Assembly: GCF_000770795.1 (NCBI RefSeq)
Contig: NZ_JRKJ01000001.1
Location: 1-64,000, forward strand
Reading direction: 5' to 3'
Length of the DNA stretch: 64,000 bases
From: Lysobacter dokdonensis DS-58
GTDB lineage: Bacteria > Pseudomonadota > Gammaproteobacteria > Xanthomonadales > Xanthomonadaceae
This document shows, in pieces, positions 2,469 through 19,852 of the stretch. The translations under genes and the position numbers were made by a program. Position 1 is the stretch's first letter. Every line of letters starts with the position of its first letter. The notes under the pieces were generated by a model, which saw nothing but the letters and a program-made list of their open reading frames with translations, did no database searches and was not told where the DNA came from.

Positions 2469-3641
2469 ATGACGGACCAGGGTCGCGGGAACAACTACGG
2501 ACGGGGCACCCTGGCGATCCACGCGGGCCAGTCGCCGGACCCGTCGACCGGCGCCGTCATGCCGCCGATCTACGCCACCTCCACGTATGCGCAGTCCAGC
2601 CCCGGCGAACACCAGGGCTTCGAGTACTCGCGCACGCACAACCCGACGCGCTTCGCGTACGAGCGCTGCATCGCCGGCCTGGAAGGCGGCACGCGCGGCT
2701 TCGCGTTCGCTTCGGGCCTGGCGGCCACCTCCACGTTGCTGGAGATGCTGGACAGCGGCGACCACGTCGTCGCCATGGACGATGTCTACGGCGGCACGTT
2801 CCGCTTGTTCGAACGCGTGCGCCGCCGTTCGGCGGGCCTGGATTTCAGCTGGGTCGACCTCACCGACCCGGCGAAGTTCGAAGCGGCGATCCGCCCGAAC
2901 ACGAAGATGGTGTGGATCGAAACCCCCACCAACCCGCTGCTGAAGATCGTCGACATCGCAGCCATCGCGAAGATCGCGAAGCAGCGCGGCCTGCTGGTCG
3001 TCGTCGACAACACCTTCTCCTCGCCGATGGTGCAGCGCCCGCTGGAACACGGCGCGGACATCGTCATGCACTCGGCGACGAAGTACCTCAACGGCCACAG
3101 CGACATGGTCGGCGGCATCCTCGTCGTCGGCGACGACGCCGAGCTCGCCGAGAAGCTGGCCTTCCTGCAGAACTCCATCGGCGCGGTGCAGGGCCCGTTC
3201 GACAGCTTCCTCGCGCTGCGCGGCCTGAAGACCTTGCACCTGCGCATGCGCGCGCACAACGAGAACGCCCTCGCGCTCGCGCAGTGGTTGGAATCGCAAC
3301 CGGCCATCGAGCGCGTCGCGTATCCGGGGCTGGCCTCGCATCCGCACCACGCCCTGGCCAAGCGCCAGATGGACGGCGCGGGCGGCATCGTCACGATCTT
3401 CGTGAAGGGCGGGCTGGAGGCGGCGAAGCGCTTCTGCGAGCGCACCGAATTGTTCACGCTCGCCGAATCGCTCGGCGGCGTGGAAAGCCTCGTCAACCAC
3501 CCGGCGATCATGACGCACGCGTCCATCCCGCCGGACCGCCGCGCGCAACTGGGCTTGTTCGACAACCTCGTGCGGCTGAGCGTCGGCGTCGAGGACGTCG
3601 AGGATCTCCGTCGCGACCTGGGCGCTGCGCTGGGGTCCTGA
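2469..3641 (+). CDS. metB: Cystathionine gamma-synthase/gamma-lyase (Cys/Met metabolism PLP enzyme)
   Basis: A 390-residue fold-type I PLP enzyme of the Cys/Met metabolism family. The PLP lysine lies in HSATKYLNGHSD (Lys205); EYSRTHNPTR near residue 53 and FASGLAAT near 77 are the usual cofactor and active-site segments. Next to cbs, the simplest role is cleavage of cystathionine to cysteine (gamma-lyase), but family members also work as gamma-synthase and sequence reading cannot separate them. In Xanthomonas the homologue is called metB and marks one edge of the lps locus, exactly as here: wzm begins 3 bp after this stop. A TAGACT 35 bases before the start is a weak -10 candidate, so the gene may have its own promoter inside the cbs operon. 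Confidence 0.92.
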   Translation: MTDQGRGNNYGRGTLAIHAGQSPDPSTGAVMPPIYATSTYAQSSPGEHQGFEYSRTHNPTRFAYERCIAGLEGGTRGFAFASGLAATSTLLEMLDSGDHVVAMDDVYGGTFRLFERVRRRSAGLDFSWVDLTDPAKFEAAIRPNTKMVWIETPTNPLLKIVDIAAIAKIAKQRGLLVVVDNTFSSPMVQRPLEHGADIVMHSATKYLNGHSDMVGGILVVGDDAELAEKLAFLQNSIGAVQGPFDSFLALRGLKTLHLRMRAHNENALALAQWLESQPAIERVAYPGLASHPHHALAKRQMDGAGGIVTIFVKGGLEAAKRFCERTELFTLAESLGGVESLVNHPAIMTHASIPPDRRAQLGLFDNLVRLSVGVEDVEDLRRDLGAALGS

Positions 3642-3644
3642 CCG

Positions 3645-4475
3645 ATGCACGCGCATGCGCGCCGCCGCACCGGCCTGGGGGAACTGATCGCCAGCGCCTG
3701 GCGGCATCGCGAACTCACGGCCTCGCTGTCCAGGCGGGAAGTCGTCGGCCGTTACCGTGGCTCGGTGATCGGCATCGCCTGGTCGTTCTTCAATCCGCTG
3801 CTGATGCTCGCGGTCTATACGTTCGTCTTCTCGGTGGTGTTCAAGGCGCGCTGGGGCGTGGCGCTGGAAGACGCGCCGGGCGGATTCGCGCTCATCCTGT
3901 TCGTCGGCATCATCGTGCACGCCATCCTGGCCGAGTGCCTGGGCAAGGCGCCGGCGCTGATCCTCGGCAACGCGAACTACGTCAAGCGCGTGATCTTCCC
4001 GCTGGAAGTGCTGCCGTGGGTCACGGTGTGGTCGGCGTTGTTCCATGCGGGCATCAGCACGCTGGTGCTGATCGTCGTGCGCGCGCTGCTCGTGCAGTCG
4101 GTGCCGTGGACGGTGGTGTTCTTCCCGCTCATCCTCGCACCGTACGCGGTGTTGCTCCTCGGGCTGACCTCGTTGCTCGCCGCCATCGGCGTGTACGTGC
4201 GCGACATCGCGCAGATCGTCGGCATCGTCACCGCCGCGATGATGTTCCTCGCGCCGGTGTTCTATCCGATCACCGCGATCCCCGAAGCGTATCGCCCGCT
4301 GCTGTACCTCAACCCGGTGACGTGGGTCGTCGAGCAATCGCGCGCGGTGCTCATCGCCGGGCAGATGCCGGACTGGACGGGCTTCTGCATCTATTCGCTC
4401 GTCGCCATCGCGGTGGCGTGGTTCGGATTCTGGTGGTTCCAGCGCTCGCGCGTGGGGTTCGCCGATGTCCTGTGA
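3645..4475 (+). CDS. wzm: O-antigen/polysaccharide ABC-2 type export permease
   Basis: A 276-residue inner-membrane protein with about six hydrophobic segments and the ABC-2 permease layout: a basic N-terminus (RREVVGRYRGSVIGIAWSF, about 28-46) leading into the first membrane segment, and a C-terminal run ending in bulky aromatic residues. It forms the channel through which the undecaprenyl-linked polysaccharide crosses the inner membrane. Its ATPase Wzt is the next gene and overlaps it by 11 bases, so the two are translationally coupled. It starts 3 bp after metB and probably depends on the metB transcript. Presence of wzm/wzt, with no Wzx or Wzy seen, indicates the ABC-transporter-dependent O-antigen route. 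Confidence 0.93.
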   Translation: MHAHARRRTGLGELIASAWRHRELTASLSRREVVGRYRGSVIGIAWSFFNPLLMLAVYTFVFSVVFKARWGVALEDAPGGFALILFVGIIVHAILAECLGKAPALILGNANYVKRVIFPLEVLPWVTVWSALFHAGISTLVLIVVRALLVQSVPWTVVFFPLILAPYAVLLLGLTSLLAAIGVYVRDIAQIVGIVTAAMMFLAPVFYPITAIPEAYRPLLYLNPVTWVVEQSRAVLIAGQMPDWTGFCIYSLVAIAVAWFGFWWFQRSRVGFADVL

Positions 4476-5835
4476 ACCCGTGCCCGGGGTCGCCGAGGCA
4501 GGCAAGCAGGCGCCGCTCGCCGTGCGCATGCAGGGCGTGTCGAAGAACTACCACATCTACGACAACCCGAAGGACCGCCTGAAGCAGGCGATCGTGCCGC
4601 GCATGCAGCGCCTGTTCGGCGCCCGGCCCGCGCGCTTCTACCGCGACTTCTGGGCGCTGCGCGACATCGCGCTCGACGTGCGCCACGGCGAAACGCTCGG
4701 CGTGATCGGCCGCAACGGTTCGGGCAAGTCGACGTTGCTGCAGATCCTGTGCGGCACGCTGACGCCGACCGAAGGCGACGTCGACGTGCGCGGCCGCGTG
4801 GGTGCGCTGCTGGAACTGGGCTCTGGCTTCAATCCCGAATTCACCGGCCGCGAGAACGTGTATCTCAACGGCGCGGTGCTGGGCATGACGCGCGAGCAGA
4901 TCGACGCGCGCTTCAGCGACATCCTCGCATTCGCCGACATCGGCGAGTTCGTCGAGCAACCGGTCAAGACGTATTCCAGCGGCATGTACGTGCGCCTGGC
5001 CTTCGCGGTCATCGCGCATTGCGACGCGGACATCCTCGTCATCGACGAAGCACTGTCGGTCGGCGACGTGTTCTTCGCGCAGAAATGCATGCGCTTCCTG
5101 CGCAAGTTCCAGGAGAACGGCACGGTCGTCTTCGTCAGCCACGACGCCGCGGCCGTGCGCAACCTGTGCGACCGCGCGATCTGGCTCGAGCACGGGCGCA
5201 TGCGCATGGAAGGCGACGCCAAGGCCGTGACCGAGGCCTACCACGCCTCCGCGTACGGCGAGACCGTGCGCGTGGTCTCCGCACCCGTGCGCGATTCGGC
5301 GGCGGACGCCGCGTCGGTCGCCAGGCTCGGCGCGGCCGCGGTGCCCAATCCCATCGAAGTGTTCCGCTTCGACCCGGGCGCGGGCTTCGGCGACGGCACC
5401 GCGACGATCCGCTCGGTACAGCTGCTCGATGCCACCACGCGCGAAGCCCTGTCCTTCGTGCAGGGCGGCGAAGACGTCACCCTGCGCATCGAGGCCGAAG
5501 CGCTCGATGCGCTGGACAGTCCGATCCTCGGCTTCCTGTTCAAGGATCGCCTCGGCCAGGTGCTGTTCGGCGAGAACACCTGGTCGACCTATCGCGACCG
5601 GGCGGTGCCGATCGACGCCGGCGCGCGCCTGAGCGCGGAGTTCGACTTCCGCATGCCGATCCTGCCGGCGGGCCGCTATTCGCTGGATGTCGCGGTGGCG
5701 AACGGCACGGTGCTCGAACATCGCCAGGCGCAATGGATGCACGATGCCTTCGTGCTCGAATCGCATGCCTCGGGCGTCACGACGGGCCTGGTCGGCCTGC
5801 CGTTCCCGGGCATCCGCCTGCAATCGGAGGAATGA
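4465..5835 (+). CDS. wzt: O-antigen export ATPase with C-terminal carbohydrate-binding domain
   Basis: A 456-residue protein. The N-terminal ATPase has Walker A GRNGSGKST (82-90), signature YSSGMYVRLAF (from 170) and Walker B DILVIDEALSVGD (from 189). The extra C-terminal region (about 300-450) matches the Wzt-C beta-sandwich, which in E. coli O9a recognises the chemically capped end of the chain before export. A Wzt with this domain implies that the locus makes a terminal cap, and the methyltransferases just downstream are the obvious candidates. It overlaps wzm by 11 bases; the next gene starts 4 bases after its stop, using the GGAGG at 5826-5830 inside wzt. Confidence 0.93.
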   Translation: MSCEPVPGVAEAGKQAPLAVRMQGVSKNYHIYDNPKDRLKQAIVPRMQRLFGARPARFYRDFWALRDIALDVRHGETLGVIGRNGSGKSTLLQILCGTLTPTEGDVDVRGRVGALLELGSGFNPEFTGRENVYLNGAVLGMTREQIDARFSDILAFADIGEFVEQPVKTYSSGMYVRLAFAVIAHCDADILVIDEALSVGDVFFAQKCMRFLRKFQENGTVVFVSHDAAAVRNLCDRAIWLEHGRMRMEGDAKAVTEAYHASAYGETVRVVSAPVRDSAADAASVARLGAAAVPNPIEVFRFDPGAGFGDGTATIRSVQLLDATTREALSFVQGGEDVTLRIEAEALDALDSPILGFLFKDRLGQVLFGENTWSTYRDRAVPIDAGARLSAEFDFRMPILPAGRYSLDVAVANGTVLEHRQAQWMHDAFVLESHASGVTTGLVGLPFPGIRLQSEE

Positions 5836-5839
5836 CGGC

Positions 5840-6445
5840 GTGCACGTGAGTTCCTACGAACACATGCAGGACCTGGTGGCGCGCTATCTCGACCGCGGCC
5901 GCGCGCTGTCGGTCATCGACATCGGTTCGCAGGATGTCAACGGTTCGTATCGCCCGTTGTTCGAACACCCGGGCTGGTCTTACACGGGCGTGGACCTCGA
6001 AGCCGGCAACAACGTCGACGTCGTGCTGGCCTCGCCGTATCGGCTGCCGATGGCCACGCGTTCGGTGGACGTGGTGGTCTCGGGCCAGGCCTTCGAGCAT
6101 GTCGAATTCTTCTGGGTCACGTGGCTGGAAATGCTGCGCGTCCTCAAGCCGGGCGGGCTGATCCTGCTCATCGCCCCGTCGCGTGGCTACGAACACCGTT
6201 ATCCGCAGGACTGCTGGCGCTTCTATCCCGACGCCTGGCGCGCGCTGGCGAAGTTCGGCGCCTGCGAACTGGTCGAGGTGACGACCGACTGGGCGCCGCA
6301 CCCCGACCCGAGCAGCGCCGACTGGGGCGACACCGTCGGAGTCTTCCGCAAGCCGCCGATGCGCTGGTTCCACCGCGCCAGGCGCATGATGGGGGCGTGG
6401 GGTTTGCGCCAACTGGTCCAGGACGTCGATCGGGGCACGCCATGA
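5840..6445 (+). CDS. Class I SAM-dependent methyltransferase, O-antigen locus
   Basis: A 201-residue protein. [13 protein letters not shown] near residues 24-36 is a motif I-type SAM site, and [18 protein letters not shown] (near 98-115) is the typical post-motif of Methyltransf_11 enzymes. The GTG at 5840 is the best start: it sits 9 bases after a GGAGG inside the end of wzt; an in-frame GTG at 5846 is the alternative. Its stop overlaps the next gene's ATG (ATGA at 6442-6445). Its place right after wzt suggests it acts on the exported polysaccharide or a precursor sugar. The acceptor is unknown. Confidence 0.8.
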
Positions 6446-7743
6446 ACACGGTCACCGCCATCGCGCACGCGCACTTCCGTCCCAACGCCAGCCTGCTGTC
6501 GCGGCCGGACCACCTGCCGCCGAGCGCATGGACGGGCCACATTCCCTTCGCGATGTGGCTGGTCGAAGCCTTGCGCCCGCGGATGCTGGTGGAACTGGGC
6601 ACGCACCACGGCGCTTCGTACCTGGCGTTCTGCCAGGCGATGCGCGAGAACGGCGTCGAAGGCCGGTGCCTCGCGGTGGACACATGGGCTGGCGACGAAC
6701 ACGCAGGCGCCTACGGCGACGAAGTCCTCGACACGCTGCGCCGCTACCACGACCCGCGTTACGCATCGTTCTCCGAATTGCTGCGCACGACGTTCGACGA
6801 GGCCGCCGACGCGGTCGCCGATGCGTCGGTCGACGTGCTGCACATCGATGGCCTGCACACCTACGAGGCTGTGCGCCACGATTTCGAAACCTGGCGGGGC
6901 AAGCTCTCCGATCGCGCCGTCGTGCTCTTCCACGACACGCAGGTGCGCGAGCGCGGCTTCGGCGTGTGGAAGTTCTGGGACGAGGTGCGCGCGCGCTTCC
7001 CGTCGTTCGAATTCGCGCACAGCCACGGGCTCGGCGTGTTGCTCGTCGGCGCGCAGGCGCCGGAGGCCGTGCGCGCGATCACCCGCATGGACGCCGACGA
7101 ACGCGCGCAAGTGCAAGCGTTGTTCGAGCGCCTCGGCGAAGGCCTGTGCGACCGCGCGCGCGCCGAGGAAGCCGAGCGCGCCGCGGCGGGGCACCACGAC
7201 GGCGTGGTCGCCTATCGCACGCATGCGCAGGCACTCGAAGGGCGCGTGGACGAACTTCAGGGCGAACTCGCCGGCCTGCGCCCCCACGCGCACGCGCTGG
7301 AACAGCAAGTCGAATCGCTGCGCCACGCCGTCGCCGGCCTGCGCGACGACGTCGCCTCGCGCCAGCACGGGCTCGACGAATACCGCACCCACGCGCAGGC
7401 GCTCGAAGTGCACGTGGCGGCCTTGCAGGCGCAGGTCAACGAAGTCCACGCGCACCTGGCGCATGCGCGCGAGACGCTCCAGGCGCAGGCCGCCGAGCGC
7501 GAACGCACCGCGCAGGCGCACGCGCACGCCGTCGCCGAAATGGCGCAACAACACGCAGCGACCACGCAAGCGCTCGCCAACGACCACGCGCGCGCGATGG
7601 AAGACATGGCCCACCGTTTGTACGAATCGCATCGACAGACCGTGGCGCTCAACGCCGAACTCCAGCAGATGCGGCAATCGCGCAGCTGGCGCGCGACCGC
7701 GTGGCTGCGCCGGTTGTCGTCGCTGGCGCGAGGCAAGGCGTAA
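6442..7743 (+). CDS. Methyltransferase with long C-terminal coiled coil (possible chain terminator/length ruler)
   Basis: A 433-residue protein in two parts. Residues about 1-210 are a Methyltransf_24-like SAM enzyme: [16 protein letters not shown] (48-63), [18 protein letters not shown] (about 132-149) and [20 protein letters not shown]. From about 258 to 408 the sequence is a long alanine/glutamine/leucine-rich coiled coil in which [YL]R[TP]HA[QH]ALE recurs in heptad register. It ends in [14 protein letters not shown] (412-425), a motif that often closes polysaccharide-assembly proteins and may be a membrane- or partner-binding helix. An N-terminal methyltransferase plus a coiled coil resembles the plan of the capping enzyme WbdD, but no kinase domain is present. 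Linking it to capping is inference, supported by the Wzt carbohydrate-binding domain two genes upstream. Confidence 0.8.
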
Positions 7744-7745
7744 CC

Positions 7746-10700
7746 ATGTTGAAGCAGACCCTCGGGCGCTGGTTGCACGCGCTGTACGCGCGTTCGCCGA
7801 TCAGCTGGGAAACCCGGCTGGCGATCAAGGACCGCCTGTTCACGTGGCTCGCGCCGCTGCTGCGCCACACCAACACGTATCAGCGGTGGCTCGAACACCG
7901 CACCGATCCCGTCGAAGCCGGGCAGCGCAACGATGCGGAAGTGCGCGAGTCGGAACTGCGCATCGACGCACGCTGGTCGCAGGACAACGACACGCTCGTC
8001 GAATATGTCGCCGGCGCGATGCGCCAACCGTTCCCGCAACCCACGCACGTGGCGATCACCACGCAGGCACCGCCGTCCGCACTCGCGGCGAAGGCCATCG
8101 CCTTCTACCTGCCGCAGTTCCATCCGATCCCGGAAAACGACGCGTGGTGGGGCCGCGGTTTCACCGAGTGGACCAACGTGTCGAAGGCCGTGCCGCAGTT
8201 CGTCGGCCATGACCAGCCGCGCCTGCCCGGCGAACTCGGCTTCTACGACCTGCGCGTGCCCGAGGTGATGCGACGCCAGGTGGAACTGGCACGCACGTAC
8301 GGCGTGCACGGCTTCTGCTTCCACTACTACTGGTTCGCGGGGCGGCGCTTGCTGGAGCGTCCGCTCGACCAGTTCCTCGCCAGCGATATCGAGTTCCCGT
8401 TCTGCGTGTGCTGGGCCAACGAGAACTGGACGCGCCGCTGGGATGGCGCCGAGCACGACATCCTGCTCGGCCAGGTGCACAACGACGAGAACGACGAAGC
8501 GTTCATCCGCGACCTGCTGCCGCTGCTGCGCGACCGCCGCTACATCCGCCTGGGCGAGCGGCCGCTGATCGTCGTGTATCGCCCGTCGTTGTTGCCGCAG
8601 TGCGCGCGCACCCTGGAGCACTGGCGCGACGTCTGCCGCAAGGAAGGCATCGGCGAGGTGTTCCTCGCGATGGCGCAGTTCGATGTCGACGATCCGCGCG
8701 AATACGGCTTCGACGCCGCCATCGAGTTCCCGCCGCACAAGGTCGCGCGCGGCCTGCATCCGATCAACTGGAAGCTGAAGGTCGTCAACCCCGAGTACGC
8801 GGGCCACGTCGTCGAATACGCCGACGTCGTCGAACAGGCGTGCCATTGGCCGGAAGCCGACTATCCGTTGATCCGCGGCGTGTTCCCCTCCTGGGACAAC
8901 GAAGCGCGCAAGCCGGGGCGCGGGTACGTGTTCGCGAACTCGACGCCCGCGCTGTACGGGCGCTGGCTCGAAGATGCGATCGCGCACGCGAACGAGCATC
9001 CCGTCGAAGGGGATGCGGTCGTTTTCATCAACGCGTGGAACGAGTGGGGCGAAGGCGCGTACCTCGAGCCCGATCGCCGCCACGGCTATGCGTACCTGCA
9101 GGCCACGCGCGATGCGCTGGAACAGGGCATGGCGCGCGAGGATGGCGTCGTCGTCGTGTCGCACGACGCGCACCCGCACGGCGCGCAATACCTTGCGTTG
9201 CACCTGGCCCGCGAGCTCAAGGCGATGCGCGTGCCGGTCGAACTGATCGTGCTCGGCGAGGGGCCGCTGCTCGACGACTATCGCGACACCGCGCCGACCG
9301 CCGTCCTCGCGGGCGCGGACGACGCCACGTTCGCCGCCGCCGCACGCGCATTGCGCCGGCGCGGCGTGCGCGCGGCCCTGGTCAACACGCTCGCCAGCGG
9401 CCACTTCGCGCGGTTCCTCCGCGAGGAAGGCATCGACGTCGTCGCGATGGTGCACGAGTTGCCCGGCGTGATCGAAGAATTCGGCCTGCAATCCAACGCG
9501 CGCGCACTCGCCGAATACGCGGGCCGCATCGTGTTCGCCGCGCCCGCGGTGGAGGCGGGGTTCGCGCAGTTCGCGCAGCTGCAGGGCGGCCAATCGGCGA
9601 TCCGCCCGCAGGGGCTCTACAAGCGCAACGCGCGCCGCGATCCCACCGAACGCGCGCGCGCGCGACAGGAGTTGCGTGCGTCGCTCGGGCTGCCTGCCGA
9701 TTGCCGCATCGTGTTGTGCGTGGGCTATGCGGACAAGCGCAAGGGCGTCGACCTGTTCCTCGATGCCGCGGCGAAGATCGGCAAACGCGATCCGAAGGCG
9801 TGCTTCGTCTGGATCGGCCACGTGGACCGCACGCTCGAGTCCGACATCCACGCGCGCATCAAGCGCTACGGGCTCACCGGGCGCGTCCATTTCCCGGGGC
9901 GCCGCACCGACACCGACACGTGCTACGCGGGCGCCGACGTCTACGCGCTCACCTCGCGCGAAGATCCGTATCCGTCGGTCGTGCTGGAAGCCTTCGACGC
10001 GGCGCTGCCCGTCGTCGGGTTCGCGGGTTGCGGCGGGCTCGATGCGCTGGTGCGCGACCATGGCGCGCTCGTGCCGATGGAGGATGTCGATGCGATGGCC
10101 GACGCGGTGTGCGCGCTGCTCGGCGACGACAAGCGCCGCGAAACGCTCGGCCTGCGCGCACGCGACCTGGTCGCCGCCGACTACGCCTTCCGTTCCTACG
10201 TGCTCGATCTGCTCGGCTGGACATCGCTGCGCAAGCCGAAGGTCAGCGTCGTCGTGCCGAACTACAACTACGCACGCTTCCTGCCCGAACGGATGGCGTC
10301 GATCACCGGGCAGACCCTGCCGGTGTACGAGATCCTCGTGCTCGACGATGCGTCCACCGACGACAGCCTCGCGGTGCTCGCGCGGTTGCAGGCGGCTTCA
10401 CCCGTGCCCGTGCGCGTCGTCGAAGGTGCGCGCAATTCCGGGTCGGTGTTCCGGCAGTGGCAGCGCGGCGTGGAGCTGGCGCGCGGCGACTACGTCTGGA
10501 TCGCCGAAGCCGATGACCTGTCCGAACAGGACTTCCTCGAACAGGTGCTGCCGCCGCTGATCGCCGGCGAAGCCGTCATGGCCTACGCGCAGTCGCGGCA
10601 GATGGACGCCGACGGCGGCGTGCTCGCCAACGATTACCTCGATTACGTCTCCGAGTTCGGCGCCGACCGTTGGCGCGCGCCGTTCCTCGCGACGCTCGGC

Positions 10701-11108
10701 GAAGAACTCGAACGCGGCCTGGCGGTGAAGAACACCATCCCCAACGTCAGCGCCGCCGTGTTCCGCCGCGACGTGTTGCGCGACGTGCTGACGGAGGACC
10801 TCGACGCGATCTGCGATTACCGCATCGCGGGCGACTGGCTGGCCTACCTGCGCGTGCTGGAACGCGGCAAGCTTGCCTTCATCCCCGCATCGCTCAACCT
10901 GCATCGCCGCCACGCACAAGGCGTCACGCTCGGCGGCGACCTGCGGCCGCACCTGGACGAAGTGATGCGCATGCAGGACTACGTGCGCACGCACCATCCG
11001 ATCAGCGAGATCGCACGCGCACAGGCGAGAGCGTACGCCGAGCGGCTGCATCGCCAGTTCGGCCTGGACGGGCAACCCCAAGACATCTGGACCAAGGAAT
11101 CGAAATGA
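7746..11108 (+). CDS. Three-domain glycosyltransferase (WbsX-like, GT4, GT2)
   Basis: A 1120-residue protein. Residues about 115-460 are a WbsX-like domain: FYLPQFHPIPENDAWWGRGF, HGFCFHYYWFAGRRLLERP, and INAWNEWGEGAYLEPD near its end. Residues about 469-828 are a GT4-type GT-B transferase with LCVGYADKRKGVDLFLDAA and EDPYPSVVLEAFDAALPVVG. Residues about 832-1060 are a GT2 GT-A domain with VSVVVPNYNYARFLPE, LDDASTDDSL and WIAEADDL. All three lie in one uninterrupted frame. The ATG at 7746 begins 2 bases after the previous stop; the stop overlaps the next ATG. A single polypeptide could add several sugars of the repeat unit in sequence. Sugar specificities cannot be read from sequence. Confidence 0.88.
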   Translation: MLKQTLGRWLHALYARSPISWETRLAIKDRLFTWLAPLLRHTNTYQRWLEHRTDPVEAGQRNDAEVRESELRIDARWSQDNDTLVEYVAGAMRQPFPQPTHVAITTQAPPSALAAKAIAFYLPQFHPIPENDAWWGRGFTEWTNVSKAVPQFVGHDQPRLPGELGFYDLRVPEVMRRQVELARTYGVHGFCFHYYWFAGRRLLERPLDQFLASDIEFPFCVCWANENWTRRWDGAEHDILLGQVHNDENDEAFIRDLLPLLRDRRYIRLGERPLIVVYRPSLLPQCARTLEHWRDVCRKEGIGEVFLAMAQFDVDDPREYGFDAAIEFPPHKVARGLHPINWKLKVVNPEYAGHVVEYADVVEQACHWPEADYPLIRGVFPSWDNEARKPGRGYVFANSTPALYGRWLEDAIAHANEHPVEGDAVVFINAWNEWGEGAYLEPDRRHGYAYLQATRDALEQGMAREDGVVVVSHDAHPHGAQYLALHLARELKAMRVPVELIVLGEGPLLDDYRDTAPTAVLAGADDATFAAAARALRRRGVRAALVNTLASGHFARFLREEGIDVVAMVHELPGVIEEFGLQSNARALAEYAGRIVFAAPAVEAGFAQFAQLQGGQSAIRPQGLYKRNARRDPTERARARQELRASLGLPADCRIVLCVGYADKRKGVDLFLDAAAKIGKRDPKACFVWIGHVDRTLESDIHARIKRYGLTGRVHFPGRRTDTDTCYAGADVYALTSREDPYPSVVLEAFDAALPVVGFAGCGGLDALVRDHGALVPMEDVDAMADAVCALLGDDKRRETLGLRARDLVAADYAFRSYVLDLLGWTSLRKPKVSVVVPNYNYARFLPERMASITGQTLPVYEILVLDDASTDDSLAVLARLQAASPVPVRVVEGARNSGSVFRQWQRGVELARGDYVWIAEADDLSEQDFLEQVLPPLIAGEAVMAYAQSRQMDADGGVLANDYLDYVSEFGADRWRAPFLATLGEELERGLAVKNTIPNVSAAVFRRDVLRDVLTEDLDAICDYRIAGDWLAYLRVLERGKLAFIPASLNLHRRHAQGVTLGGDLRPHLDEVMRMQDYVRTHHPISEIARAQARAYAERLHRQFGLDGQPQDIWTKESK

Positions 11109-11947
11109 CGAACACCGTCTCCACGGAAGAGTGGACCCGCCGCGTGATCGCGAGCATCGACGCGCCGCAGTCGAGCCCGCACGGCGATCCGCTGCCGCAC
11201 TTCCCCGACGCCACGTTGCAGGCCAACACGACCGGTTTGTCCGGCGAGGCCGCCGTGCGCCAGGCCGCGGGCTTCCACGACGATGTCGTCGGCGCGATGG
11301 CGCGCGCGGGCGCGCCGCTGCGCCCGGGCATGCAGGTCCTCGATTTCGGCTGCGGCTGGGGCCGCATCAGCCGCATGTTCCTGCGCGAAGTGTCCGCGAA
11401 CGACCTGCACGGCATCGACGTCGATCCGGACTTCATCGCGCTGTGCAAGCAATTGTTCGGGTCGGAGCGCTTCAGCACCTGCGCGCCGATGCCGGATGGC
11501 GCGCTGCCTGCGCAAGGGTTCGATCTCGTCGTGGCGTACTCGGTGTTCTCGCATCTCTCGCAGGCCGCGGCCACCGCATGGCTGGACGAGTTCCACCGCA
11601 TCCTGAAGCCCGGCGGGTTCGTGGGCTTCACCACGCGCCACGAATCGTTCTTCGCGTACCTGGAATGGGCGCGCAACACGCCCGGCGTGCAGGGCTACAC
11701 GAAGGCCCTCGGCGAGTTGTTCGACGACACCGCCGTGCCGATGGCCGCGTTGCGCCGCGGGGAATTCGTGCACGCGACCGCCATGGGCGTGTCGGGCGGC
11801 GGAGTGCGCAACGAATCCTTCTACGGCGAAAGCTGGATCCCGCAGGCGTGGCTCGAACGCGAATACGGCGATCGTTTCGAAGTCGTCGCCGCGTGCTTCG
11901 ACCCGACCAAGTACGACCAGATCGGCTTCGTGCTGAGGAAGCGCTGA
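11105..11947 (+). CDS. Class I SAM-dependent methyltransferase, O-antigen locus
   Basis: A 280-residue protein with motif I VLDFGCGWGRISRMF near residue 80, acidic motif HGIDVDPDFIALCKQLF, and the ILKPGGFVGFTTRHE post-motif. An N-terminal extension of about 70 residues precedes the SAM fold. Its ATG overlaps the stop of the glycosyltransferase (ATGA), and its own TGA overlaps the ATG of the following lipoprotein, so the chain of coupled genes continues. The similarity is to general Methyltransf_11/25 enzymes. Substrate is unknown; sugar O-methylation is likely from context only. Confidence 0.82.
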   Translation: MTNTVSTEEWTRRVIASIDAPQSSPHGDPLPHFPDATLQANTTGLSGEAAVRQAAGFHDDVVGAMARAGAPLRPGMQVLDFGCGWGRISRMFLREVSANDLHGIDVDPDFIALCKQLFGSERFSTCAPMPDGALPAQGFDLVVAYSVFSHLSQAAATAWLDEFHRILKPGGFVGFTTRHESFFAYLEWARNTPGVQGYTKALGELFDDTAVPMAALRRGEFVHATAMGVSGGGVRNESFYGESWIPQAWLEREYGDRFEVVAACFDPTKYDQIGFVLRKR

Positions 11948-18164: not shown

Positions 18165-19106
18165 TCAGCCGAGCGCCTGTTCCAGTTCCGGGAGCAACTT
18201 GAACAGATCGCCGACCAGGCCGATGTCCGCGATTTCGAAGATCGGCGCTTCGGGATCCTTGTTGATGGCGACGATCGTGCCCGCGTCCTTGATGCCGGTC
18301 AGGTGCTGGATCGCGCCGCTGATGCCGACGGCGACATACAGCTCCGGCGCGATGATCTTGCCGGTCTGTCCGACCTGCAGCTCGTTCGGCACGTAGCCTG
18401 CGTCCACCGCGGCGCGCGAGGCACCGACACCCGCGCCGAGCTTGTCGGCGAGTGCGTAGACGATCTTGAAATTCTCCGCCGAACCGACACCACGCCCGCC
18501 CGATACGACGCGCTTGGCGCTCTGCAGGTCGGGACGATCGGACTTGCCGGCCGCGAGGTTGCCGTAACGCGTGTGCGTCGGCAGCGCCGCATCGACCGAG
18601 GCCTGTTCCACCGACGCGCTGCCGTCGCGCGCCACTTCCGGCCACGAGGCCGTGCGCACGGTGGCCACGACCGGACGGCCCTGCGGCGCTTCGACGGTGA
18701 CGATCGCGTTGCCCGCGTAGATCGGGCGCTTGAACGTGTACGCGCCTTCGACCGACATGACATCGGACACCTGCGAGACGCCGAGCAGCGCGGCGACACA
18801 CGGCATCAGGTCCTTGCCGAAGGTGGTGCTGGGGCCGAAGACGTGCGTGTAACCATCGGCGAGCTTGGCCACCTGCGGGGCCTGCACCTGCGCGATGGCG
18901 TTCGCGTTCGCGGCGTTGCCGACCCCGATGACGCGCGCGACGCCCTGCAACTTCGCGGCTTCCGCGGCGACGCCCGAGGGATCGGCGGCGAGCACGACGA
19001 CGTCGATCGATTCGGGGTTCAGCGCCTTCGCCGCGGACACGCACTTGGCGGTGGCGGCGTTGAGCTTGCCGTCGAGATGTTCGGCGACGATGAGGACCTT
19101 GGCCAT
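18165..19106 (-). CDS. etfA: Electron transfer flavoprotein alpha subunit
   Basis: A 313-residue subunit that binds FAD and passes electrons from acyl-CoA dehydrogenases to ETF-ubiquinone oxidoreductase. The C-terminal FAD domain shows [32 protein letters not shown] and [20 protein letters not shown], all standard for the family. The start shares one base with the stop of etfB (TGATG). In Xanthomonas etfA marks the other edge of the lps locus from metB; the same holds here. The polysaccharide GT4 gene begins only 8 bases after this stop, with no terminator between. Confidence 0.96.
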
Positions 19107-19852
19107 CAGAGCAACCCCTTCGCTTTCAGTGCGGCGACCAGTTCGGCCGCGTCCTTGACCATCACGCCCTTGCTGCGCTTGGCAGGCGGTGCGTAATGCG
19201 TGGTCTTGAGTTCGTCGCCCGCGTCGACCGCGAGATCGCCGAACGGAATGGATTCGAGCGGCTTGCTCTTGGCCTTCATGATGTCCGGCAGCTTGATGAA
19301 GCGCGGCTCGTTGAGGCGCAGGTCCGTGGTGACGACGGCGGGCAGGTCGACTTCGAGCGTTTCCAGGCCCGCGTCGACTTCGCGCACGACCTTGGCCTTG
19401 CCGCCCTCGACGTCGAGCTTGGAGGCGAACGTCGCCTGCGGGCGGCCCCATAGCGTGGCGAGCATCTGACCGGTCTGGTTGGCGTCGTCGTCGATGGCCT
19501 GCTTGCCGAGGATGACGAGGTCGGGCGATTCCTTTTCCACCAGCTTCAGCAGCGTGCGCGCGGCGGCCAGCGGCGAGATGGGGCCATCGGCGACGACGTG
19601 GATCGCGCGATTGGCACCCATCGCCAGGCCGTTGCGCAGGTGCGCCTGGGCGTCGGCGGGGGCGATGGTGGCGACGATCACCTCGGTGGCGATGCCCTTG
19701 TCGCGCAGGCGGAGCGCTTCTTCCAGCGCGATTTCGTCGAAGGGGTTGGCGGAGAGCTTGACGCCGTCCGTCACCACGCCCGAGCCATCGGGTTTGACCT
19801 GGATGCGGACGTTGTAGTCCACCACGCGCTTGTAGCCGACGAGGATCTTCAT
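19106..19852 (-). CDS. etfB: Electron transfer flavoprotein beta subunit
   Basis: A 248-residue subunit that pairs with EtfA and holds structural AMP. It begins [20 protein letters not shown], has [18 protein letters not shown] (about 37-54) and the AMP-region [20 protein letters not shown] (about 119-138), all characteristic. It is the first gene of a minus-strand run that continues through etfA into five polysaccharide genes with no gap above 9 bases. Length is normal. The likely promoter is in the 130-bp divergent space shared with the CoA-transferase genes. Confidence 0.96.

Follow-up and report, generated by a model that had tools for sequence, protein, structure and literature searches.

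The lipopolysaccharide (LPS) locus of Lysobacter dokdonensis DS-58 lies within the window analysed here, the first 64,000 nucleotides of contig NZ_JRKJ01000001.1 (assembly GCF_000770795.1), and includes at positions 6442–7743 a gene whose product combines a methyltransferase head, a long coil and a conserved motif at the coil end. We consider it highly probable that this protein is a methyl-cap chain terminator, and a probable length ruler, of an O-antigen exported by an ATP-binding cassette (ABC) transporter. The cap role is proposed because the head has a predicted sugar O-methyltransferase-type fold and the neighbouring Wzt contains the tryptophan that grips the methyl cap in Aquifex, and the ruler role because the coil ends in SxSW(R/K)xT as do, also at the coil end, those of the O9-family and O8 WbdD proteins. 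A first-pass annotation, made from the sequence alone, had suggested such a cap-and-ruler function, and this suggestion gains support from a motif common to proven rulers, from the swapping of heads on a constant body and from the pocket tryptophan of Wzt.

The open reading frame (ORF) starts with an ATG at 6442, ends with a stop codon at 7741–7743 and encodes 433 amino acids. The N-terminal S-adenosylmethionine (SAM) enzyme of the first-pass annotation is a PF13578 domain (Methyltransf_24) at residues 50–166, with an E value of 5.1e-26 and 92 bits against a curated Pfam cut-off of 26.3, and the Pfam scan at E≤0.01 agrees that no kinase family is present in the protein. Structure prediction of the protein alone, which the annotation had proposed as a check, gives an AlphaFold2 monomer model (40-row alignment, pLDDT 90.8) with a globular head, helices at 218–306 and 311–412, a break within the motif and a short final helix at 420–432. 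When tested against composition shuffles, heptad periodicity is clear at residues 255–345 (0 of 3000 shuffles as good) and 301–350 (p 0.0007), and is absent at 226–260 (p 0.86). About 150 residues of coiled coil had been claimed; the long helices are there, amounting to about 195 residues, but the clear heptads within them span only about 96. A nonapeptide, YRTHAQALE, occurs at residues 258 and 314 (DNA 7213–7239 and 7381–7407), exactly 56 residues or 8 heptads apart, and suggests growth of the coil by duplication. The terminal motif noticed earlier, [11 protein letters not shown], is at residues 413–423; the helical part is followed by the tail [12 protein letters not shown] and then the protein end, with 21 residues from the motif start to the C-terminus.

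The closest Foldseek match to the head is Mycobacterium hassiacum MeT1 (E 3e-9), which we take to be a mannoside 1-O-methyltransferase. VIA-align gives Z scores of 16–18 to O-methyltransferases of the COMT/SafC type, and a Z of 16.1 (184 aligned, 3.2 Å) to the spinosyn rhamnosyl 4'-O-methyltransferase SpnH (4ce0). Residues invariant across 40 relatives include E51, G53, D80, D136, H139, H164 and D165, a pattern that is presumably that of metal-dependent sugar O-methyltransferases. A PDB sequence search with the protein alone returns no methyltransferase, and with the family profile the sole methyltransferase is 6g7d (MeT1, E 0.00014). The modelled head has a fold of the sugar O-methyltransferase type; WbdD is not among the 50 fold matches listed for it, which excludes nothing.

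The coil-end motif is widespread in the family to which the strain belongs. An alignment of 36 tails, that of the window protein among them, has the consensus SxSWRxTxPLR, in which W and R are invariant and both S and the T are at least 90% conserved. At E≤1e-4 the derived profile gives 91 hits, spread over 82 of 149 family genomes, and 75 of these 82 have exactly one copy. In the strain's own genome it matches the window protein at E 1.6e-10 and the next best ORF at 0.059; the former match follows from the inclusion of this tail among the 36 rows, so that only the lack of further matches is informative. With reversed ORFs as a control at E≤1e-3 there are no matches among 4328 and 162 sequences, compared to 58 and 7 forward matches. 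Of the 91 tails, 45 lie within 20 kb of a Wzt_C domain, 42 of them 0–6 kb downstream, a proximity that is partly by construction because the alignment was partly built from slots beside Wzt_C; a further 23 are in genomes with Wzt_C on another contig and 23 in genomes without it. Twenty regions fetched from the 46 other hits contain metB in 14 cases and a Wzt-like ATPase in 13. Much of this remainder is thus likewise located in the metB locus, next to an ABC ATPase for which no Wzt_C is recognised. In five regions (L146–L150) the motif is within long proteins (open frames of 1391–1674 amino acids) with neither metB nor Wzt in the fetched stretch, and two of these (L147 and L149) have GT4 and GT2 glycosyltransferase domains according to Pfam. 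The motif strings that we tried are absent from the literature on this subject among the papers searched, a search outside which most subscription papers fall.

The same motif is present in enterobacterial chain terminators. Applied to 11 enterobacterial regions (L151–L161), the tail profile picks 9 of 162 six-frame ORFs of at least 150 amino acids. In every case the ORF is its cluster's WbdD, GT99 or coil protein, and four of the nine are coil proteins with ABC genes alongside. A profile lacking the L105 tail, or one built from the 15 PF13578-headed tails only, recovers these nine and no other ORF at E≤0.05. The 708-residue WbdD of an O9-family locus (L154) has SRSWRMT at residue 592, and the 425-residue protein of an O8-family locus (L155), annotated as a class I SAM-dependent methyltransferase and taken here as the O8 WbdD, has SRSWRITQPLR at residue 308, in both cases at the coil end. 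The WbdD-like protein of an O99 locus has SRSWMITKPYR, a Klebsiella protein annotated as WbdD has SRSWKMTKWYR, and a GT99-headed protein (L158) has SLSWKLTMPVR at residue 473. The profile also matches the coil proteins of L160 (PF13578 head) and L161 (Methyltransf_25 head), as well as two PF13578-type coil proteins in capsule-type E. coli clusters (L152:7917–10649 and L153:5896–8634); Pfam was run on L152, L154–L156, L158, L160 and L161. There is no match in L157 (an rfbB locus with an ATPase of only 246 amino acids) or L159, nor in the three proteins that follow wzt in an O60 locus (L162). In the one E. coli record of nine that was searched whole, the coil protein scores 6.2e-6 and the next best 0.20. 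The slot protein of the family locus L105, whose ORF starts 36 bases after that of wzt, is genuinely homologous to WbdD: it matches WbdD chain 4uw0 at E 2.6e-96 across residues 13–402, comprising methyltransferase and kinase, and it carries STSWRMTRPLR. No WbdD homologue was returned at E≤1e-40 from 369 genomes of the class, a result that is uninformative.

We note that the L152 and L153 coil proteins are about 910 amino acids long, carry the end motif and have a very long coil, and that one kind of PF13578-coil protein adjoins a BexC/CtrB/KpsE-type gene in E. coli capsule-type ABC clusters. With a 2.8 kb query around that of L152, matches are obtained in 101 of 5426 E. coli genomes, and in 50 of these they cover at least 80% of the query. 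All 101 places were counted as chromosomal, including that in NZ_CP141089.1, a 4.9 Mb E. coli record titled as a plasmid. The O60 slot protein (L162:8959–9828) seems by eye to have the reversed architecture, a coil and then a methyltransferase-like part, with no end motif, in a locus whose Wzt has the pocket tryptophan.

O9a WbdD is described as a trimeric ruler about 20 nm long, and insertions into and truncations of its coil shift the modal chain length (PMC5082667). Its C-terminus includes an amphipathic helix, the C-terminal coil region interacts with WbdA, and a 1–600 construct is expressed in large amounts whereas the full-length protein is difficult to solubilise (PMC3447403).

Comparison of the corresponding loci within the family shows that different heads are carried on a common body. 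The query P0001 matches 14 of the 149 family genomes at E≤1e-3, and in the 12 same-family regions fetched, metB adjoins in all 12, wzm and wzt are both present in 10, and a WbsX-glycosyltransferase gene is present in seven. In one of these (L069) the same slot contains a methyltransferase of another family (PF08241, 5.3e-25) on a coil ending in SFSWRSTSWLR, and precedes a WbsX-glycosyltransferase gene 53% identical to that of the window. A further 60 regions were picked only by a Wzt_C match, from 106 places and generally the stronger ones, and 26 of them have a tail-bearing ORF. Among 93 regions in total (12 selected by P0001 and 20 by the tail itself) there are 58 tail-bearing ORFs, of which 38 continue for more than 150 residues past the motif and 20 end within 150. 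Heads were labelled by BLAST to Pfam-checked representatives, with 19 of the 58 unlabelled, and the families on the representatives are PF13578, PF08241/PF13649, PF05050 (FkbM), PF08242/PF13489 and, more weakly, the sulfotransferase family PF13469; GT2, GT4, WbsX or RgpF domains often follow. The clearest case is that of L067:7867–11388 and L092:3950–7369, which share 75% identity over residues 277–1172, with nearly identical coil, motif and glycosyltransferase parts, while their heads, PF13578 in L067 and of the Methyltransf_11 type in L092, do not align at E≤1e-3; the pair is a natural head swap. L115 has WbsX and RgpF fused to the head, coil and motif, and direct fusion to the polymerase, as here and in L067, argues that the window protein does hold its polymerase.

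Several loci have sulfotransferase-like heads, with a GxxRSGTS loop, on the same coil and motif (L110, L111, L117, L120, L123, L138, L143 and L144), with PF13469 above its cut-off in L117, L120 and L143; three proteins labelled 'Sulfo_a' (L131, L137 and L142) are without the GxxRSGTS motif and were not counted as sulfotransferases. For comparison of the Wzt proteins 12 loci were labelled sulfotransferase-like by a GxxRSGTS-type N-terminus. Of these, L117, L120 and L122 pass the PF13469 cut-off, and in L104, L113, L116, L124 and L125 it is the best family below cut-off; L118 weakly matches another sulfotransferase family (E 0.028), L110 has no match at 0.05, L111 none listed at 1e-4, and L123 was outside this Pfam scan. 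We predict that such loci make sulfate-capped O-antigens.

Further evidence comes from Wzt. As the first-pass annotation had stated, the gene lies two genes after a wzt whose product has a C-terminal carbohydrate-binding domain (CBD), which is PF14524 (Wzt_C) at residues 308–445 (E 4.1e-31). The best solved relatives of this Wzt are 8dku (E 1.7e-75) and 7k2t (E 4.6e-75), and the CBD also matches 6o14; 7K2T and 6O14 are structures named in a paper on the Aquifex aeolicus Wzt (PMC9445017). In that protein the 3-O-methyl cap occupies a pocket of Leu300, Thr346, Ala348 and Trp362, with Trp362 stacking on the methyl, and a change of Trp362 to Leu essentially abolishes LPS binding in vitro. The pocket was mapped by Wzt alignments, in which six residues checked fall on the letters named in the paper, and the window Wzt has Leu358, Asp408, Ala410 (corresponding to Ala348), Ala412 (His350) and Trp424 (Trp362).

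The pocket residue varies with the head. Wzt-like ORFs are present in 83 of the 93 regions, and among the first 41 aligned the pocket tryptophan is found with PF13578 heads (10/10), Methyltransf_11-type heads (9/9), FkbM heads (3/3) and in headless loci (3/3), and arginine is found in all 12 sulfotransferase-like loci (including L110, L111, L117, L120 and L123, those of the loop-bearing group that were aligned) and in the WbdD-homologue locus. Another 35 Wzt rows, mostly with unclassified heads, have Trp in 20, Arg in eight and no aligned CBD in seven; only L101, whose Pfam-checked head is a methyltransferase and whose Wzt has Trp, was counted, and with it 23 of 26 methyltransferase-headed family loci have the tryptophan. 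Among characterised or named systems the residue is Trp in O8, Arg in the O9-family, O99 and Klebsiella WbdD loci, and Gln in the GT99 locus; it is Trp in L160, L159 and O60, Arg in L161, and Trp in five of seven PF13578 loci outside the family. Only five Wzt columns have a residue that is common to the sulfotransferase-like and kinase-type loci and lacking in the methyl loci (30 versus 17 rows, leaving out L006, L037, headless rows, L129, L130, the GT99 row, L159, L161 and L162), and two of these are the pocket residues, Ala348 to Gly and Trp362 to Arg.

We envisage the following mechanism. The PF13578 head would O-methylate the non-reducing end of the growing chain, on a sugar and at a position that we infer rather than observe, and growth would stop, leaving a terminal methyl on the chains of this organism. 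The coil would hold the head away from the membrane, and its SxSWRxTxxLR end would dock, connecting it with both the membrane and the separately encoded WbsX-GT4-GT2 polymerase; the oligomeric state of the protein and its control of length belong to the proposal and not to the observations. Wzt would then export those chains whose methyl end fits the CBD pocket that includes Trp424.

A number of observations weigh against this interpretation. Within the protein, the last ~60 residues of the coil (346–410) are weak in heptads (p 0.06), the C-terminal part by which WbdD interacts with WbdA is mostly absent, and the hydrophobic moment of the tail helix is not above that of shuffles (p 0.36), for which reason we do not claim a classic membrane helix. 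Within the locus there are two other methyltransferases, either of which could be the capping enzyme. Across the family only about half of the tails are within 20 kb of Wzt_C, and for the 60 hits from genomes outside the alignment this falls to 15 (12 of them 0–6 kb downstream); 34 of the 60 regions chosen by Wzt_C have no tail-bearing ORF, the association of tail and Wzt_C by genome is weak (61 with both, 39 with Wzt_C only, 21 with the tail only, 28 with neither; p 0.053), and Wzt_C occurs in only 10 of 32 genomes of distant PF13578 relatives. Departures from the pocket pattern include three family loci with MT12 heads (Arg, Tyr and Tyr) and the non-family PF13578 loci L006 (Leu) and L037 (Arg), and two E. 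coli ABC loci (L159 and O60) have the pocket Trp without the motif. Trees of Wzt were also considered as a test of cap reading and were dropped: they require 9 and 8 head changes for the ATPase and CBD parts, respectively (shuffled mean 24.6, for the CBD tree only), and since the ATPase part sorts by head nearly as well as the CBD, plain operon inheritance explains the sorting. The residue-level pocket comparison was used instead, and is likewise not free of shared ancestry.

Other explanations can be considered for the same data. That the protein caps the chain but does not measure it, with length set by enzyme ratio or by the polymerase and the coil only docking the head, is unlikely but deserves serious attention: the heptads are clear over only part of the helices, and the spacing from head to motif ranges from 114 to 278 residues in the nine PF13578-headed tail-bearing family members, so is not fixed. 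A tunable ruler would show variable spacing too, however, and the coil that sets modal length in O9a WbdD (PMC5082667) has the same end as that seen here. It is rather improbable that the motif says nothing about termination and serves glycosyltransferase proteins as an ordinary linker or for membrane binding, although the more than 150 residues following it in 38 of the 58 ORFs are mostly glycosyltransferase domains in the cases scanned with Pfam, a few motif proteins have no recognisable head (L075 and L083, with GT4 only), and L146–L150 lack metB and Wzt in the fetched stretch. A linker of this kind is hard to reconcile with the single copy in most positive family genomes, with the wide gap between the coil protein and the next best hit in the E. 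coli record searched whole, or with the presence of the motif in kinase-, methyl- and GT99-type terminators alike. Still less probable is internal decoration, in which sugars inside the repeat are O-methylated and the coil serves just as a rod for oligomerisation or scaffolding that keeps the enzyme near the polymerase. With two more methyltransferases in the locus methylation need not be terminal only, and 22 of the 32 genomes of distant PF13578 relatives are without Wzt_C, several having the coil and motif, but the coil end is that of proven terminators, the Wzt pocket has the Trp of the O8 and A. aeolicus systems, and heads from different families replace one another in the slot.

The locus itself (Table 1) is the metB-etfA LPS locus of xanthomonads, described previously (PMC2238763), with wzm and wzt after metB and etfA at the far end. 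A PALP/CBS gene precedes metB, followed by wzm, wzt, the small methyltransferase, the terminator gene, the WbsX-GT4-GT2 gene and another methyltransferase, with two ETF genes at the far right. One of the two extra methyltransferases, 5840–6445 and 11114–11947, could decorate the repeat unit.

Table 1. Features of the LPS locus and of the candidate terminator in the window.
Feature	Coordinates	Strand	Basis or remark
metB (cystathionine gamma-lyase type), left border of LPS locus	2469–3641	+	PF01053 8.3e-157; PMC2238763
wzm, ABC transporter membrane subunit	3645–4475	+	PF01061 4e-23
wzt, ABC transporter ATPase with C-terminal cap-reading domain	4465–5835	+	PF00005, PF14524
Wzt_C domain	5386–5799	+	codons Ala410 5692–5694, Trp424 5734–5736
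Small stand-alone methyltransferase (Methyltransf_11)	5840–6445	+	PF08241 1.3e-10
Candidate chain terminator (methyltransferase head, coil, end motif)	6442–7743	+	ORF, Pfam, heptad test, AlphaFold2
Methyltransf_24 domain, residues 50–166	6589–6939	+	PF13578
Long helices 218–306 and 311–412; clear heptads 255–350 (7204–7491)	7093–7677	+	AlphaFold2, heptad test
Coil-end motif [11 protein letters not shown], residues 413–423; protein ends ten residues later	7678–7710	+	ORF translation, tail profile
Likely polymerase, WbsX + GT4 + GT2	7746–11108	+	PF14307 5e-134, PF00534, PF00535
Third methyltransferase of locus	11114–11947	+	PF08242 7.8e-17
etfA and etfB, right border of LPS locus	18165–19852	-	PF00766 9.2e-35 and PF01012 1.4e-34 (18165–19451); PF01012 8.4e-38 (19106–19852)

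The coil-end motif and the Trp/Arg pattern are the parts of more general interest. In the literature searched, coil rulers have so far been recognised protein by protein, through coil predictors and experiments. A short motif at the polymerase end of the coil, common to methyl, methyl-phosphate and GT99 terminators, would allow such rulers to be detected from sequence; it distinguishes the constant body from the variable cap head and points to residues for mutation. Wzt is tied to cap chemistry by the Trp/Arg pattern, which predicts charged, possibly sulfate-capped, O-antigens in relatives of this organism. We speculate, with the chances about even, that these are parts of a modular terminator system with a readable code, in which any cap-forming head may be carried on a coil ending in one docking motif, SxSW(R/K)xTxPxR, and a pair of pocket residues in Wzt reads the cap, Trp/Ala for a neutral methyl and Arg/Gly for a charged phosphate or sulfate. 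The heads would then include methyltransferases of at least three Pfam families, a methyltransferase-kinase, GT99 and a predicted sulfotransferase, whose sulfate cap would be undescribed. If such a code is real, the cap chemistry of uncharacterised O-antigens becomes predictable from two genes.

Lastly, the protein can be compared with known systems. The first-pass annotation had regarded it as a simpler version of the WbdD system, but methyl-only termination is already known: O9a WbdD phosphorylates and then methylates, whereas the O8 WbdD of E. coli is a simple methyltransferase (PMC3482155), and the Klebsiella O5 cap is a methyl (PMC11231755). What is new here is the head family, the very short tail, the common motif, which is absent from the papers searched, and the Trp/Arg pattern. 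Nor is the protein a reduced WbdD, as the head is from another methyltransferase family and the segment that follows the motif in WbdD is mostly missing, with 118 residues from motif start to protein end in the O8 protein and 117 in the O9-family WbdD.

In common with O9/O9a WbdD, a methyl-phosphate terminator and ruler, the window protein has a coil ending in the motif and a slot after wzt, but the O9-family protein has a kinase domain (PF00069) and its Wzt has the pocket Arg. The WbbB-type terminator/polymerase with a GT99 head (L158, which we read as O12-type) likewise has a head, coil and end motif next to wzt, although its head is a glycosyltransferase (PF21912) and it has fused glycosyltransferase modules. 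Among xanthomonad LPS genes, Xanthomonas campestris wxcB encodes a protein whose described similarity is to both the methyltransferase and the kinase domain of WbdD, and strain B100 loses its O-antigen when Tn5 is inserted in this gene, although that study did not exclude polar effects (PMC4878081); the window protein differs from WxcB in having no kinase. For a methyltransferase-coil protein required for O-methylated chains, E. coli O101 offers an experimental precedent: the MT protein of O101/O162 has an N-terminal methyltransferase and a C-terminal coil, and strains with disrupted MT are without O-methyl groups (PMC13168486). The likeness in architecture is by description, and distant DNA searches did not find the O101 gene.

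The closest parallel is with the O8 WbdD, also a kinase-free methyltransferase with a coil and the coil-end motif, encoded between a CBD-bearing wzt and a polymerase gene in a locus whose Wzt has the pocket Trp. The heads differ, being Methyltransf_25/11 in O8 and PF13578 here, and by BLASTP only residues 362–426, at the coil end, align well with the O8 protein (E 2e-4). Judged from its sequence, the window protein has the features of a coiled-coil terminator of the WbdD/WbbB kind, with a catalytic head domain, a coil, the SxSW(R/K)xT motif and a CBD-bearing Wzt as neighbour, and with a head of a different Pfam family, no kinase and most of the post-coil segment missing it does not appear to be a WbdD proper. 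It would nevertheless work like the methyl-only O8 WbdD, although by its head it is not one.

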